Shown here: piece by piece, positions 8,320 through 23,759 of the stretch | Numbering within the stretch: position 1 is the stretch's first letter | Layout: every line of letters begins with the position of its first letter | Virus record (IMG/VR): IMGVR_UViG_3300033182_001279 | Coordinates: 1-25,088 of that record | DNA length: 25,088 bases | From: a virus | Reading direction: 5' to 3' (one strand) | Position numbers and translations under genes: made by a program | Notes under the pieces: generated by a model | The model's input: the letters and a program-made list of their open reading frames with translations, nothing else | The model's database searches: none | What the model was told of the DNA's origin: nothing

Positions 8320-9801
8320 TTAGAAATCTAAGATAATTTTGAAATCTTCAATTTGATCTGGTTCACGCAACACAGGTTGCACGTTTTCAGTATAAAGGAT
8401 CTCACCAGAATATGTATTTGCTTCTGGACCCTTTACTTCAAGAATTGTTCCAATTTCCGTGTCGCTGGTGCTTTTGATAATAACATCATCAACTTGGAAA
8501 GATTTGTAGTTAGCGAAACTATTAACGTTATTTATGTAAACTGAATAGATAGACGTATCAGATTCTGTTTCATCTTCTCTAACATAAACAACACTTGCAT
8601 TAGCAGCACGAATAGCATTTTGTAGTGCATTAGTTGCTAGATCATCACCAAGATCTGTAATAAATCCGATAGAACCTGCTTGAGCATTTTCCAACATTCT
8701 TGTTGTTGTGATACTATCACCAACAGATAATGGATTTACTGGAGTAGATCCATCCATTTGAGTATAAGACATTTTGATTTTAGTCGAAAGTCTTAGAGTA
8801 GTTGGTGAGTTTGATGTATTTGCAATATTCTCTGATACAACAAAACCATTTGTTGAGTTTGCTTTTAGCATCGGATCCTTCATAATTGAGATTGTTCTAA
8901 ACTCAGTATTAGAAGGAACATATCCTGCACCTGATGCAGAAATACCCATATTGTTATCAGTTTGAATATTCAACAATACCTTATCTGCAGATAACTGACG
9001 AATCATATCTGCGCCATGTCCACCAACTGGAGAGAAAATAGCATTTGCCGCAGCACCTGAACCATTTACAGTATTTGCTGTAATATAAAGTTTTCCTTCA
9101 GTATATCTGCTACCTCTGTCAATAATAGTAATGCCGCTGACAGAACCAATATCAGTATTTACAGTTGAATATGCTTTAGCACCAACACCGTCACCAACGA
9201 TAGTAATGGTTGGAGAAATAACAACCTTAGAGTCTGTATTACAAGTTGTTGTAAATGCACTATTTACAGTAAGTGTTCTTGTTGTTCCATTATACCCAAT
9301 GATTCTTCTCAATTGACCAGCACCTGTTCCAGAAGAAACATAAACACTAGATCGAGTATATGAACCATTATCAGTAGATGCACCAGTTGCATCAGAACCT
9401 GACAGCGTAATAGTAAACTTTCCTGCTGAAGTTACCGAACCATTTGCAACATACAAATAATCAGAACCACCAGCATTTACTTCAGCAACCTCAATAGCAC
9501 CATTTACAGATGCGTTCTGTACTGCCAACTGTCTTTCTGACTCAATAGTAGTTCCAGAAGTAACATTACGAACAGGAATATATGTGGTTGTTAGAAACTT
9601 GTTTGCGTCTGCTAAAGAAACAGTAAACATATACTTCCAAATATAACCATCAGATGTAGTAAATGGAAGAGTAGAAAATCCAGTTGGTTTTACAGTAGAA
9701 ACACCACCTTTATTATTATACAAACAGATATAAACATTATTTTCGTCTGTCATTGCATACCATTCTTTTTCATACACATCAGTATCTGTATCACGATACA
9801 T
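8320..9801 (-). CDS. gp8: Baseplate wedge gp8-like protein, C-terminal part
   Basis: 493 residues from the first ATG, but coding-like sequence extends in the same frame for 26 more codons up to the UAA at 9880-9882 (see that entry), so the true start is probably upstream of 9801. The first part (KEWYAMTDENNVYICLYNNKGGVS, TTSDGYIWKYMFTVS) is the conserved gp8-type core in which the protein describes a small 'YICLYN...GG..S...P' strand followed by W-K-Y. The body contains recurring turn motifs (AGGSDYLYV, DRGSRYTEGKLYI, SGAGYVPSNTEF) also found in the upstream 934-residue protein. The end (EPDQIEDFKIILDF) is a typical gp8 C-terminus. gp8 dimers sit in the outer wedge of the T4 baseplate. Confidence 0.75.
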   Translation of the reverse strand: MYRDTDTDVYEKEWYAMTDENNVYICLYNNKGGVSTVKPTGFSTLPFTTSDGYIWKYMFTVSLADANKFLTTTYIPVRNVTSGTTIESERQLAVQNASVNGAIEVAEVNAGGSDYLYVANGSVTSAGKFTITLSGSDATGASTDNGSYTRSSVYVSSGTGAGQLRRIIGYNGTTRTLTVNSAFTTTCNTDSKVVISPTITIVGDGVGAKAYSTVNTDIGSVSGITIIDRGSRYTEGKLYITANTVNGSGAAANAIFSPVGGHGADMIRQLSADKVLLNIQTDNNMGISASGAGYVPSNTEFRTISIMKDPMLKANSTNGFVVSENIANTSNSPTTLRLSTKIKMSYTQMDGSTPVNPLSVGDSITTTRMLENAQAGSIGFITDLGDDLATNALQNAIRAANASVVYVREDETESDTSIYSVYINNVNSFANYKSFQVDDVIIKSTSDTEIGTILEVKGPEANTYSGEILYTENVQPVLREPDQIEDFKIILDF

Positions 9802-9882
9802 TGCATAAGAAGTACCAGAAGTCCAATCATAACGAAGAGTTACATGCGAAACATTATCTGTTGTAATCTTTTTTTTTCCTTA
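9802..9882 (-). other. In-frame UAA inside gp8 merged with an SD-like sequence
   Basis: Between the 71-codon N-terminal gp8 frame and the 493-residue C-terminal frame there is no change of frame: both begin at positions divisible by three. The only interruption is TAA at 9882-9880. The 26 codons after it (GKKKITTDNVSHVTLRYDWTSGT and so on) look like gp8 in the marine T4-like family, where the chain normally runs '...KKIT..DVSHV..R..WTSGT.Y'. The stop is the start of TAAGGA, a strong match to the 16S rRNA tail complement, followed by nine A residues (9877-9869). An AUU codon at 9867 lies 9 nt behind TAAGGA and could be an unusual restart. Readthrough, reinitiation and a real or assembly mutation are all possible. 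Confidence 0.7.
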
Positions 9883-10095
9883 TGCTTCACGGTGAACAGA
9901 GTATCTTAGGTATTGGTCATTGTCGCCTGGAACAACAGGATTTGGTTCATCTTCCCATTCTTCCGCTCTTCCAAGTACAGCATATAAAATGGTTGACAAT
10001 TTTTCAGATGATGTGTCTGATGCGCTAAGTGCCTGAATAAATGCCTTAGCATTATTGATCGATAATTCTCTTGTTGCGTATCTATAAGTTGCCAT
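9880..10095 (-). CDS. gp8: Baseplate wedge gp8-like protein, N-terminal part
   Basis: 71 residues, starting MATYRYATRELSINNAKAFIQ. The block ILYAVLGRAEEWEDEPNPVVPGD (about residues 36-58) is the characteristic N-terminal gp8 pattern of marine T4-like phages: a short amphipathic helix, then a 'Y-x-x-x-G-R/K-x-x-x-W-x-x-E-x-x-P-x-x-P' loop. It is too short to be a complete gp8 (T4 gp8 has 334 residues), and the rest of the protein continues in the same frame after the stop. The ATG overlaps the TAA of the gp7-position gene (TAATG), the same coupling used at several other junctions here, so this is the genuine gp8 start. It may make a free 71-residue peptide if the stop is obeyed. Confidence 0.75.
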   Translation of the reverse strand: MATYRYATRELSINNAKAFIQALSASDTSSEKLSTILYAVLGRAEEWEDEPNPVVPGDNDQYLRYSVHREA

Positions 10096-19828: not shown

Positions 19829-20404
19829 ATGTCGATATTTTCTCAAATTTTACAAAGCGGAGCAAAAGCAGGATACACACCTGCAACTTCCGCAAAAGCA
19901 AGGCAGTGGTTCCGTGATAAAGCACGTGACTTCGCTGCTGGACGCTCACGCATGATGCGAGAAGGTAGAAAAGTTTCTGCTCCAGAAATTGGTTCAATGT
20001 ATCATTTTATCTATGATCCAAAAGGTAAAAAGACTTTACCTTATTATGATAAGTTTCCGCTTATCTTTATGGTTGGACCAGCAGAAGGTGGATTTTATGG
20101 AATCAACCTCCACTACCTTCCACCAACAATGCGTGCGGTGCTAATGGATAAGTTATATACAATAGCATCCGATAGAAAGTATGATGCAAATACAAAACTG
20201 AGATTATCATATGATGTTATGAAAGGTGCTGCAAAGTTTAGATACTTCAAACCAACATTCAAGCATTATCTTGCTAATCATGTAAAATCACAGTTTATGA
20301 AAATAAACGCAGATGAGTGGGATATCGCTCTTATGTTACCAACACAGAACTTTGCTAAGGCAAGTACTGATCAAGTTTATGCTGACTCAAGGAAGGCAAT
20401 CTAA
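19829..20404 (+). CDS. Conserved protein of unknown function between gp4 and gp54
   Basis: 191 residues. Conserved-looking blocks are KARQWFRDKARDF near 23-35, GSMYHFIYDPKGKKTLPYYDKFPLIFMVGPAEGGFYGINLHYLPPTMRAVLMDKLY at 55-110, and YFKPTFKHYLANHVKSQFMKINADEWDIALMLP at 138-170. I recall similar proteins in many T4-like and other large phages, where they are usually unnamed or given as structural. The basic N-terminus and the fold-like aromatic core would fit a DNA-contacting or capsid/tail-joining protein, but no specific function can be read. It is flanked by gp4 and gp54 in one plus-strand run, with the stop overlapping the gp54 start (TAATG). Confidence 0.75.
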   Translation: MSIFSQILQSGAKAGYTPATSAKARQWFRDKARDFAAGRSRMMREGRKVSAPEIGSMYHFIYDPKGKKTLPYYDKFPLIFMVGPAEGGFYGINLHYLPPTMRAVLMDKLYTIASDRKYDANTKLRLSYDVMKGAAKFRYFKPTFKHYLANHVKSQFMKINADEWDIALMLPTQNFAKASTDQVYADSRKAI

Positions 20405-21270
20405 TGGCAATTCTAAAAGACTTCGCAAAAGGTATTGCACAGGGGTTTGTTGATGAGGGGTTGAAATCAATTTTTGGGCAACCAAACGATTCTGTTCGTG
20501 GTGATGGTGCTTCTGGTTTCAATTCTCAGAATATGATTTCATCTTTGAATAAAAGTGGTGTTGCGCACTCAGGACATTTTACTGTTCAACTTCAACCAAA
20601 AAGAATTTTGGGTGGGGAATCAGATATGATTTATAGAGCAGAATCAGCAGAACTTCCAGGACGTTCTCTTGCTACTGTTGATCATCGTTTTGATAACTAT
20701 GCACCAATTGCTCGTGTTGTAACAGGACAAACTTATACTGATGTTGCTGTAACCTTTCTTTTATCTGAAGATCTAAGAGAAAAGGAATACTTTGAAAAAT
20801 GGCAAGAATCAGCAGTTGGTACTGGAGCATTTTCTGCAACGTCAGCAAAAACAACAAACAACGTCAAATACTATGAAGACTATGCTGGAACAATCACACT
20901 AAGACAGTATGGAGCAAATGGCAATTTGCGTTCTGTTCATATTTTAGAAAACGCATATCCATTAGTATTGGGTGGCGTTCAAATGAACTGGGCAGACGAA
21001 GGATTTGCCAGACTAGCAGTTTCATTTTCTTATCAAAGATATAAAGTTATGTTTTATCGTCAGGATCAAGCAAGAAAGGGCATTTCTGCTGGATTCTCTT
21101 TAGGCAAAGGTGGATTTTCTGGTTCAATCAATATTCCAGGTATTGGAACTTTCGGAAAAAGTGGCGGAAGATCAGGTTTTGACTTGAGTCCTGGAGCATT
21201 CAATTTGGGTAAAAAGATTTTCAATGCTCTTCCATCAAACAAAACAAATCCATTAGAATTTGCACCATAA
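20404..21270 (+). CDS. gp54: Baseplate tail-tube initiator gp54
   Basis: 288 residues (T4 gp54 has 320). It has the tail-tube fold pattern: HSGHFTVQLQPKR near 57-69, YRAESAELPGRSLATVDHRFDNYAPIARVVTGQTYTDVAVTFLLSEDLREKEYFEKWQ at 78-135, and YAGTITLRQYGANGNLRSVHILENAYPLVLGGVQMNWADEGFARLAVSFSYQRYKV in the middle. The last part is Gly/Ser/Phe-rich and ends NPLEFAP, matching the end of gp48. gp54 sits on gp48 and nucleates gp19 tube polymerisation in T4. It lies on the opposite strand from gp48, which separates two partners that are adjacent in T4. The start overlaps the previous stop by one base; a 26-bp gap with GAGG precedes gp26. Confidence 0.88.
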   Translation: MAILKDFAKGIAQGFVDEGLKSIFGQPNDSVRGDGASGFNSQNMISSLNKSGVAHSGHFTVQLQPKRILGGESDMIYRAESAELPGRSLATVDHRFDNYAPIARVVTGQTYTDVAVTFLLSEDLREKEYFEKWQESAVGTGAFSATSAKTTNNVKYYEDYAGTITLRQYGANGNLRSVHILENAYPLVLGGVQMNWADEGFARLAVSFSYQRYKVMFYRQDQARKGISAGFSLGKGGFSGSINIPGIGTFGKSGGRSGFDLSPGAFNLGKKIFNALPSNKTNPLEFAP

Positions 21271-21296
21271 TTATTTTTTTATTTTGAGGTTATATC

Positions 21297-21992
21297 ATGG
21301 CATTACCAAATATTGCACTACCGACATTTAGTATGAAAATTCCATCAACTGGAAAAGAAATTACATTTCGACCATTCCTTGTCAAAGAAGAAAAGATTCT
21401 TTTGATGGCACTTGAAGGTCAAGACAGAAAAGAAATCACACAATCTGTTTATGATGTGTTGAAAAATTGTATTCTAGAAGAAAATATAGATTACAAAAAA
21501 CTTCCAACATTTGATATTGAATATATGTTTTTGATGATTAGATCAAAATCTGTTGGAGAAGAAATCACATTTACTATGTCACATTCTGAAGAAAAAGAAT
21601 GTAAACATAAAACTGAGGTATCCGTAAACTTGAATGACGTTCACGTTCAAGGTAAAGTCAAAGACGGAAATATTATGTTGACGGATTCTATTGGAATCAA
21701 AATGCGTTACCCAACAATTGAAGTTATTGATAGCGTTATGTTGGGTGAAGATACTCTTTCTGCTATCGCTAGTTGTATTGATGTGGTATTTGATGGTAAT
21801 GAGGTTTATGATGATTTTTCACATGATGAGTTGGTAGATTGGTTGGGTAAACTGAACAACTCACAATATGATAAAATAAACCAGTTTTTCTCAAACACAC
21901 CAAAACTTTCGCATACAGTAAAATGGAAATGTGAAAAGTGTGGAGAAGAAGATGAAGTAACCATTGAGGGACTTTTCAATTTTTTTATCTAA
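21297..21992 (+). CDS. gp26: Baseplate hub / tail assembly protein gp26
   Basis: 231 residues (T4 gp26 has 208). The opening (LPNIALPTFSMKIPSTGKEITFRPFLVKEEKILLMALEGQD, about 3-43) is the signature of the T4 baseplate gp26 family. A second block (FDIEYMFLMIRSKSVGEEITF) is followed by a possible zinc site made of C102, H104 (ECKHK) and C212, C215 (WKCEKCGEE). In T4, gp26 is needed for hub assembly. A good ribosome site (GAGG) stands 9 bp before the ATG. The zero-frame stop at 21990-21992 follows a U UUU UUU heptamer and a stem-loop, so part of the ribosomes may shift and extend the protein to about 290 residues. The gene order gp26, extension, tape measure is that of tail-assembly chaperones before the tape measure. 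Confidence 0.9.
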   Translation: MALPNIALPTFSMKIPSTGKEITFRPFLVKEEKILLMALEGQDRKEITQSVYDVLKNCILEENIDYKKLPTFDIEYMFLMIRSKSVGEEITFTMSHSEEKECKHKTEVSVNLNDVHVQGKVKDGNIMLTDSIGIKMRYPTIEVIDSVMLGEDTLSAIASCIDVVFDGNEVYDDFSHDELVDWLGKLNNSQYDKINQFFSNTPKLSHTVKWKCEKCGEEDEVTIEGLFNFFI

Positions 21993-22026
21993 GCATGGTA
22001 CATAATTCATTAGCGAACATGTACCA
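21980..22026 (+). promoter_or_regulatory. Candidate programmed -1 ribosomal frameshift signal
   Basis: The heptamer T TTT TTT occupies 21980-21986 and is in the correct phase for the gp26 frame (codons Asn, Phe, Phe). The zero-frame stop follows one codon later at 21990. A perfect 8-bp inverted repeat begins 9 nt after the heptamer: TGGTACAT at 21996-22003 pairs with ATGTACCA at 22019-22026 across a 15-nt loop. Slipping back one base reads Tyr-Leu-Ser and enters the 57-codon frame that ends at 22168. Confidence 0.75.
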
Positions 22027-22168
22027 GTTGAACTTCGCACTAATGCAATATCATAAATATTCATTGACTGAAATTGAAAATATGATACCTTTTGAACGTG
22101 ATATATACGTTGTTATGCTTCAGCAATATTTGAAAGATTTGGAAGAAAAACAAAGACAAAAAGGCTAA
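21995..22168 (+). CDS. -1-frame extension of gp26 (57-codon frame), GT-type candidate
   Basis: 57 residues from the ATG at 21995 (MVHNSLANMYQLNFALMQYH...), or the C-terminal 60 residues of a gp26 fusion of about 290 residues if entered by a -1 slip. It is helical, with the pattern NFALMQYHKYSLTEIENMIPFERDIYVVMLQQYLKDLEEKQRQ. The 'SLxEIxxMxPxERxxYVxxL' part is typical of small tail-chaperone extensions. There is no good ribosome site before its ATG (only TAAG, from the gp26 stop), which favours frameshift over separate start. It ends 4 bp before the tape-measure gene. The T4 gene following gp26 is gp51 (249 residues, hub assembly); whether this short frame is its counterpart is unknown. Confidence 0.8.
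   Translation: MVHNSLANMYQLNFALMQYHKYSLTEIENMIPFERDIYVVMLQQYLKDLEEKQRQKG
22052..22059 (+). promoter_or_regulatory. Weak late-promoter-like octamer CATAAATA
   Basis: A 7 of 8 match to TATAAATA on the plus strand, inside the small frame and 114 bp before the tape-measure ATG. The variable first base is tolerated in some marine T4-like late promoters. It is in coding DNA and may be chance. Confidence 0.25.
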
Positions 22169-22172
22169 TTAG

Positions 22173-23759
22173 ATGGCACTACCAGATATCCCAAGCAAAT
22201 TTTTAGAAGAAGAACTTGCAATCGGTATTTACGATCTCGATGATAAGATCAGCACAACCAACTCAAAATTAGAGCAAATTGAAAATACACTTGTAGAAAT
22301 CTTTGTTGTAAACAGCGATACTCTAAAAAAGTTGGAAGGTCTTTTCAGTATCGAAGCAGACAGAAGAAAAGATGAAACTCTTGGGGAAGGACTTGCTTTA
22401 GAAGCAGCAAGAGAAAAGGATGATTCTAAAGACGTTGAGATTAGTATAAAGGAAAGAATCAAAGAAGCAAAATCTGATTTCTCACCATTTTTATTAGGAC
22501 TAATCGCTGCTGGTGCTGGAGCATTCGCATTCGCAGATAAAATTGCTGATGTTATCAACAAAATTGATAACATGCTTCCAGATTGGTTGAAGGGTGAAGA
22601 TGGTGATAATCTTGATAATATTGGAATGGGAGCGAGAGCAGGATTAGCAAACCAACCAAAAAATTTCGATCGTTATAAAGGGCAAGGTAAGAACTCACTT
22701 ACCACTGGCAAGGCATCTCCACAATCAAGATCATTCTTTGGTTTAGGACAAGGAAAAGGATCTCTGGTAACTGGACAGGCATCTCCACAATCAAGATCAT
22801 TCTTTGAAAAGGCAGGGAAGGTAGCAAAACCAGTTGCAGGAGCAACCGCAAAGGCAGGAAAGGCAGTTGTAAACACAACTGGAGAACTTGCATCTACTAT
22901 TGGCAGAAAAGCAGGAAAGGTTCTTCTTCCTCTTGATGTTGGTATTCAAGCAGCAAGGTGGTGGTTAGTTGAAAATGATGATAGTCTATCACAAGATGAA
23001 AAAGATAAAGAACAAAACAAAATACTCGGCGGTTTTGGTGGAGCATATGCAGGAGCAAAAGCAGGTATTTTAGCAGGGTCTATTGCTGGTCCTTGGGGAA
23101 TGCTTGTTGGTGGTATTGTTGGAGGTATTGGTGGTTCAATCGCTGGAGAAGAGTTAGTGGAGGCATGGTACAATACTTTTGGTGAAGAAATAACTCCACA
23201 ACAAGCAGAAGAACTCAGAAAACAAATAGAAGAAGCAACGCAAAAATCAAAGACTCAACGCAGAATTGAAAAAGAAGATAGAGCGATGAATCTTGGGGTT
23301 GTTGTTGCACCAACAGAAACGCAAATGTTCGGAATGAATGTTCAAGGATACAATGCTGCAGCAGCAAGCAAAAAATCTATTGAAGCAGAAAATGCTAAAG
23401 CATCAACAAGAATGTTATCTGCAGAACAATACTTGAGTGTTGCTGGAAGTGAAGATATGCAAGCATTCCAATATTCTCAAGGAAAGGGATTAGAAAAAAT
23501 TGATAATGTTTCTCGATCAATATCAGGCAATGAAGATATTATCACTATTCATATTGGCGGAAAATCTAAAGAACTTGCCGATGGAAATGGAAAACCTATT
23601 GTCATAAACAACAATAATCAAACAAACAACAATGTTGTTGGTGGCGGTGGTGGTAAAAGTATTATCGGTGGTGGTGGAATGGGTAGTGCTACCAAACAAA
23701 ATCCAGGTAGAGCAAACTACAGAGAACCATTTGATCCAGTTCATTATGGAGCATTCTAA
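22173..23759 (+). CDS. gp29: Tail tape-measure / hub protein, gp29-like
   Basis: 528 residues (T4 gp29 has 590). Residues 20-60 and 80-100 form coiled-coil helices. Hydrophobic Ala/Gly segments follow at about 104-121 (SPFLLGLIAAGAGAFAFA) and 290-325 (GILAGSIAGPWGMLVGGIVGGIGGSIAG), as in tape measures that later pass into the inner membrane. A Gly-rich end (VVGGGGGKSIIGGGG) closes with REPFDPVHYGAF. It lies directly behind the gp26 and extension frames, the place of the tape measure in most tailed phages. Two 19-residue units (QGK-N/G-SL-T/V-TG-K/Q-ASPQSRSFF) at 171-189 and 193-211 are a tandem duplication. Direct similarity to T4 gp29 was not seen, so the name rests on position and composition. 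It ends 8 bp before a terminator serving the opposite strand. Confidence 0.78.
   Translation: MALPDIPSKFLEEELAIGIYDLDDKISTTNSKLEQIENTLVEIFVVNSDTLKKLEGLFSIEADRRKDETLGEGLALEAAREKDDSKDVEISIKERIKEAKSDFSPFLLGLIAAGAGAFAFADKIADVINKIDNMLPDWLKGEDGDNLDNIGMGARAGLANQPKNFDRYKGQGKNSLTTGKASPQSRSFFGLGQGKGSLVTGQASPQSRSFFEKAGKVAKPVAGATAKAGKAVVNTTGELASTIGRKAGKVLLPLDVGIQAARWWLVENDDSLSQDEKDKEQNKILGGFGGAYAGAKAGILAGSIAGPWGMLVGGIVGGIGGSIAGEELVEAWYNTFGEEITPQQAEELRKQIEEATQKSKTQRRIEKEDRAMNLGVVVAPTETQMFGMNVQGYNAAAASKKSIEAENAKASTRMLSAEQYLSVAGSEDMQAFQYSQGKGLEKIDNVSRSISGNEDIITIHIGGKSKELADGNGKPIVINNNNQTNNNVVGGGGGKSIIGGGGMGSATKQNPGRANYREPFDPVHYGAF
22711..22806 (+). repeat. Tandem 66-bp duplication inside the tape-measure gene
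   Basis: A 30-base segment starting AGGCATCTCC and ending TTCTTTG occurs identically at 22711-22740 and 22777-22806, 66 bp (22 codons) apart. The preceding part of each unit (GQGK-x-SL-x-TG) is also repeated with a few changes. The reading frame is kept. Confidence 0.95.

Follow-up and report, generated by a model that had tools for sequence, protein, structure and literature searches.

The tail assembly chaperones gpG and gpGT of phage lambda are reportedly connected by a frameshift, which Levin is said to have described in 1993 and Xu, Hendrix and Duda in 2004; P2 and other long-tailed phages reportedly use it too. The dnaX-type -1 signal of bacteria combines an internal Shine-Dalgarno (SD) sequence, a slippery heptamer and a hairpin, and stimulators at -1 frameshift sites are in general common, not obligatory. 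A 2016 review described the G-T frameshift as conserved "except T4" (PMC5009743). As far as the work is represented in papers citing it, Vladimirov, Gautam and Davidson identified T4 gp26 and gp51 as tail assembly chaperones in 2022 (Virology 566:9-15). With reference to that study, some T4-like phages are stated to use a short gene and a fused long gene (PMC10885494), and poly-T slip signals are stated to be known in T4-like TAC-N genes (PMC12846349). In regard to the short gp51 of other T4-like phages, it was noted in 2010 that cyanophage gp51 has about 20% of the length of T4 gp51 and that the first ~200 residues are missing in cyanophages and marine vibriophages (PMC3037559).

We analyzed a gp26 locus of a marine T4-like virus in which a programmed -1 frameshift very probably joins gp26 and a small downstream frame into one recoded gene, as judged from sequence comparison. 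By the same measure, most T4-like phages that do not belong to T4's own group have retained the slip signal. A preceding sequence-only reading of the locus had remarked that this is not the usual description of gp26. The implied novelty does not hold in view of the 2022 study, as its citing papers present it, and the frameshift principle in T4-like chaperones has probably been published already. In the literature consulted, which includes Vladimirov et al. 2022 by way of the papers citing it, we found neither the SD element upstream of the heptamer nor the T TTT TTA variant described, and likewise no account of how broadly the signal is conserved or of clade-specific hairpins.

Results

The DNA analyzed here (the window) is a 25-kb virus contig of 25,088 nucleotides with T4-like baseplate, tail and replication genes. 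The gp26 gene (21297–21992, + strand like all features below unless stated otherwise) encodes 231 residues that match PF12322 (E 1.8e-63) and phrog_150 (E 3e-67), making it the candidate short tail assembly chaperone, equivalent to gpG. Its 3' end reads AAT TTT TTT ATC TAA, with the stop codon TAA starting at 21990. The slippery heptamer T TTT TTT occupies 21980–21986 and lies in the phase of gp26, since its last three bases are gp26 codon 230. After a spacer of 9 nt (21987–21995) follows a stem-loop (21996–22026; MFE -12 kcal/mol, z -2.9), in which TGGTACAT (21996–22003) and ATGTACCA (22019–22026) form eight perfect pairs around a 15-nt loop (22004–22018). The -1 frame extension, the putative gpT equivalent that is annotated as gp51 in relatives, spans 21986–22168 and reads Tyr-Leu-Ser-Met and onwards until a stop codon at 22166–22168, so that the predicted long form comprises gp26 codons 1–230 plus 3 plus 57 residues, 290 in total. 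Heptamer, phase, spacer, stem, loop and the 290-residue product had all been proposed from the sequence alone and proved correct to the base. That account had missed the upstream side, where a Shine-Dalgarno-like stimulator, GAGGGA, is located at 21966–21971 with 11 nt from GAGG to the second base of the heptamer.

Directly upstream of gp26 lies a tail-tube-like gene (20404–21270; PF23849 Phage_TTP_2, E 1.5e-9; phrog_45 tail tube, E 1.7e-27). The further claim that the chaperone pair stands immediately before the tape measure gene was not confirmed: the next gene (22173–23759), encoding a putative tail protein of 528 residues, showed no similarity to T4 gp29 by hhalign and matched a tape measure PHROG only weakly (phrog_20739, E 0.006), besides a partial match to a tail-associated lysin (phrog_1047, E 5e-12). 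The 528-residue protein contains glycine-zipper-like stretches. Among relatives, the large gene after gp51 varies in length, and in two loci (L012, L019) it starts about 340 nt after gp51.

Runs of seven T were seen five times in the window as opposed to 25 expected from shuffles, and the copies other than that in gp26 all lie outside ORFs of real-gene size. One of them is intergenic (21274–21280) and another (9869–9877) falls into the region of an interrupted gp8 gene, antisense to gp8. This gp8-like baseplate wedge gene (8320–10095, - strand) carries one in-frame TAA at 9880–9882, which separates two ORFs of the same frame (9880–10095 and 8320–9879) that match phrog_438 residues 6–58 and 105–478, respectively. 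The sequence GGA AAA AAA AAG stands just after this TAA. The interruption may represent a nonsense change, an assembly error or readthrough; no near DNA match to the region was found among phage records.

The strongest evidence that the signal goes beyond chance is its conservation in relatives. We collected 340 gp26 loci from IMG/VR contigs and named phages and could place the gp26 stop with a gp26 profile in 333 of them. Thinning to less than 75% identity yielded 162 gp26 representatives, gathered by gp26 similarity and thus by a criterion independent of the heptamer; T4-type loci with separate gp26 and gp51 genes were left out of the junction statistics. P values that assume independence are overstated because the sequences are related, and counts of changes on a tree are the safer measure. 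The tree was built with FastTree from gp26 without its last codons and the junction, and the change counts are lower bounds by parsimony.

An alignment of related T4-like genomes, which the sequence-only reading had named as the way to check the signal, bears it out. T TTT TTN lies shortly ahead of the gp26 stop in 157 of 162 representatives (N being C in 96, T in 42 and A in 19), and in every complete representative (154/154) the -1 frame is open for 56–73 codons from the heptamer, whereas the zero frame ends after a median of one codon. The codon that supplies the first T of the heptamer encodes Ser, Asn, Asp, Ala, Gly, Thr and other residues and ends in T in all 157 carriers, where 92.8 would be expected (log10 P -37.5 if the sequences were independent). 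The first Phe is TTT in every carrier compared to 69% elsewhere. On the gp26 tree, the amino acid of the preceding codon changed at least 52 times, while the seventh base of the heptamer (or its absence) and the distance from heptamer to stop each changed at least 18 times. The presence of the heptamer itself changed once, and this single change accounts for all five representatives without it.

These counts bear on the possibility that the T run reflects chance or a constraint on amino acids, the C-terminal xFF of gp26 being kept as protein in an AT-rich genome. The FF is invariant in a diverse gp26 alignment and these genomes often have T at third positions, as such a constraint would have it. 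Nevertheless, we regard this explanation as wholly improbable. T is invariant at both relevant third positions of the 157 carriers, whereas consensus at the other upstream third positions averages 0.49 and nowhere exceeds 0.75. In one clade the second Phe is replaced by Leu and the slip class is retained as T TTT TTA, the HIV-type heptamer. In T4 gp26, where no gp51 follows directly, the site reads GAG TTC TTT. What is conserved beyond the needs of the protein is hence an X XXY YYZ heptamer in zero-frame phase. Two loci that seemed to show xFF or xFL without a heptamer (L103, L051) were rejected as second matches downstream of an intact heptamer.

The five representatives without T TTT TTN are three Ackermannviridae (L097, L098, L102) and the Vibrio phages 207E48.1 and K441 (L093, L094), all of which still have gp51 in the -1 frame directly after gp26. 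The three Ackermannviridae gp26 genes end in ATT TTC ATT TAA with TAATG or TAATT overlaps, and coupled starts, perhaps at AUU, are one conceivable route to gp51 in these exceptions.

The potential to pair with the anti-SD sequence is greatest 15 nt ahead of the heptamer (mean -5.8 versus -0.4 kcal/mol background in 156 relatives). The published rule for a stimulatory SD applies to 120 of 157 sequences (76%) and to 9.6% of control positions in the same phase. Where Glu occurs at the SD-like site it is encoded by GAG in 71% of cases compared to 29% elsewhere (Fisher 2.7e-21). The element is retained in 90 of the 124 relatives that lack the gp51 ATG.

A different route to gp51 would be coupled termination and re-initiation, in which ribosomes stop at the gp26 TAA and restart at ATG 21995 to yield a separate 57-residue protein. 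The spacing TAA GC ATG in the window would fit this process, TAATG overlaps suggestive of it occur in some relatives, and cyanophage annotation assumes a separate gp51, with distinct gp26 and gp51 CDS in P-SSM2, S-SM2 and others. The start is poorly kept, however. At the position of the window's start codon, ATG occurs in 33 of 157 sequences and mostly a Leu codon otherwise, and the codon changed at least 20 times on the tree. Of 155 relatives, 67 have no ATG, GTG or TTG ahead of the conserved block, and a start with an SD is present in only nine. No SD pairing was found upstream of ATG 21995 in the window, in agreement with the initial suggestion that the small frame lacks a good ribosome site, and the SD-like element lies too far upstream to serve this start. 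Re-initiation would also leave unexplained the fixed heptamer and the in-frame fusion of T4 (see below), and we consider it improbable as the main route to gp51. Since the ATG stands 2 nt past the gp26 stop in the window, coupled re-initiation could still add some free gp51 there. In a frameshift, the -1 frame runs into a conserved coding region that needs no start of its own, and gp51 is present yet unannotated in several cyanophage records, e.g. ACG-2014j, -b and -d.

Downstream of the heptamer, 51-nt segments of the 157 relatives fold more stably than codon-preserving shuffles (mean z -1.5, p 7e-19), compared to z values of -0.1 to -0.4 for control segments in the same test. Most members of the window's clade retain its stem (32 relatives, with 86% of cells paired), and the covariation anticipated for it was seen to some extent within this clade: columns 19/45 read AU in 12, GC in 11 and GU in 3 sequences. 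RNAalifold predicted no consensus structure for the window clade, and the stem was assessed instead by pair counts on the named stem and by the codon-preserving shuffles. The stem of the P-HM2 clade combines high pairing with zero covariation and was therefore left out as evidence of selection. Among the T TTT TTA clade and its neighbors, some sequences form a different hairpin, in which three pairs show compensatory changes. A tight hairpin (7–8 bp, 4-nt loop, e.g. GGCTCTC ACAT GAGAGCC) directly 3' of the gp26 stop was noted in the T TTT TTA loci L311, L319, L321, L322, L323, L329, L332, L336 and L337, with compensatory variants in L307, L317 and L339. Other clades have other stems or none that is evident, and in many relatives the stem is weak or different. 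As it varies between clades, the hairpin is best regarded as a clade-level stimulator and not as a universal part of the signal.

The stimulators found, an SD-like sequence upstream and RNA structure downstream, act on ribosomes, which speaks against transcriptional slippage, i.e. a stutter of RNA polymerase on the T run that would join both frames in some mRNAs. The run of seven T in the window would be compatible with such a stutter, and T runs of this kind are avoided in genes, possibly for this very reason (PMC4066793). Yet in most relatives the run consists of just six T, with C or A as the next base, and the heptamer holds the X XXY YYZ phase, so that we see very little likelihood in this explanation. 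A run of six T is short for polymerase slippage.

The small frame could be assigned to gp51 based on its matches to phrog_634 "baseplate hub assembly catalyst" (E 8.9e-25) and to the C-terminal part of phrog_150 (E 2e-6). In T4 gp51 (249 residues), residues 1–201 match PF12322, the gp26 family, and the C-terminus matches the family of the small frame, i.e. a gp26-like domain and a gp51 tail are united in one ORF. Given this domain order, T4 gp51 is the counterpart of the predicted frameshift product, and gp26 by itself represents the short form. Matches covering most of the T4-type gp51 were obtained for more than 1300 records. In T4, gp26 and gp51 are separate genes in opposite orientation, and they are likewise separate in Aeromonas phage Aes012. 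The locus studied here has the PF12322 domain and the C-terminal gp51 tail of this family. A separate full-length gp51 of ~250 residues with its own gp26-like domain was not found in the window, which encodes only a gp51 tail of 57–60 residues in the -1 frame directly after gp26. The contig has a single gp26 match; as it is a 25-kb fragment, a second copy could exist elsewhere in the genome.

The AlphaFold2 model of gp26 (pLDDT 94) had as its top three matches out of 457 chains 3fgx, 2ob9 (HK97 gp13) and 3klu (YqbN), with Z scores of 7.5–8.0 (rmsd 3.5–3.9 over 84–86 residues) that fall into the range the tool terms only suggestive; the next match scored 4.7. Foldseek E values for the same matches were 1.6 or worse, and a gp26 profile search against PDB sequences gave no match. 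The three proteins all figure as phage tail assembly chaperones in the literature (PMC9603447). The -1 extension was modeled as helical (pLDDT 86). Together with the in-frame fusion of gp26 and gp51 in T4, these matches support the proposed chaperone pair, in which gp26 and its extension would be the short and the long tail assembly chaperone.

Discussion

The findings suggest the following course of events. Most ribosomes would terminate at the TAA at 21990 and release gp26, the short chaperone. A minority would be delayed from both sides, with GAGGGA pairing to 16S rRNA at the rear of the ribosome and the stem-loop standing ahead; on these ribosomes both Phe-tRNAs on U UUU UUU would slip back by one base, bypass the stop codon and allow 60 more codons to be read, yielding the 290-residue gp26-gp51 as the long chaperone. 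In analogy to lambda gpG/gpGT, the tape measure protein would be coated by many copies of the short form and few of the long one, and tube subunits would be recruited through the 60-residue tail. Direct sequence comparison shows that the signal exists and is conserved, that the -1 frame is open, that no start is conserved and that the in-frame gp51 of T4 is homologous; from this we infer the slippage, its rate, the relative doses of both forms and their chaperone function.

A gp26 domain supplied by frameshifting would account for the ~200 residues found missing from the short gp51 proteins in 2010. Many records do not list the short gp51 at all. In evolutionary terms, the combination of SD-like element, U UUU UUN and hairpin could be the ancestral T4-like route to two chaperones, a scenario to which we give an even chance. 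It would have been retained in cyanophages, marine vibriophages and T4-like phages of Rhizobium, Stenotrophomonas and Aeromonas; the group of T4 would have replaced it by duplicating and fusing a gene (gp51), and in the Ackermannviridae line the heptamer would have been lost and the -1 frame be reached otherwise.

If the proposed frameshift is true, hundreds of marine T4-like genomes should bear a joined gp26-gp51 CDS. The finding also qualifies the view that T4 stands apart from an otherwise conserved tail frameshift (PMC5009743), and it offers a natural set of phages in which frameshifting and gene duplication can be compared as means of setting protein ratios.

In comparison with T4 and its near relatives, where the short and the long form come from two genes, a single gene would provide both forms here by frameshifting. 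The locus resembles lambda G/GT in having a short ORF that carries a heptamer at its 3' end and is followed by a -1 extension, a position in the tail cluster after a tail-tube-like gene and a predicted, putatively chaperone-like fold of the first product. It differs from lambda in its protein family (PF12322), in the use of U UUU UUN instead of lambda's heptamer and in the upstream SD-like element and clade-specific hairpins. It shares the three-part layout of dnaX, in which an SD-like element precedes the heptamer by ~9–12 nt and a hairpin follows it. However, the heptamer is read by Phe-tRNA and is not A AAA AAG, its hairpin is weaker and does not occur throughout, and the predicted frameshift product is a longer protein and not a truncated one. 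Pakpunavirus and Vandenendeviridae phages such as Adele (PMC12846349) likewise have contractile tails, a poly-T slip site at the 3' end of TAC-N and a -1 frame that is open in every genome, but they belong to another phage family and carry an invariant GTTTTT where the phages studied here have T TTT TTN.
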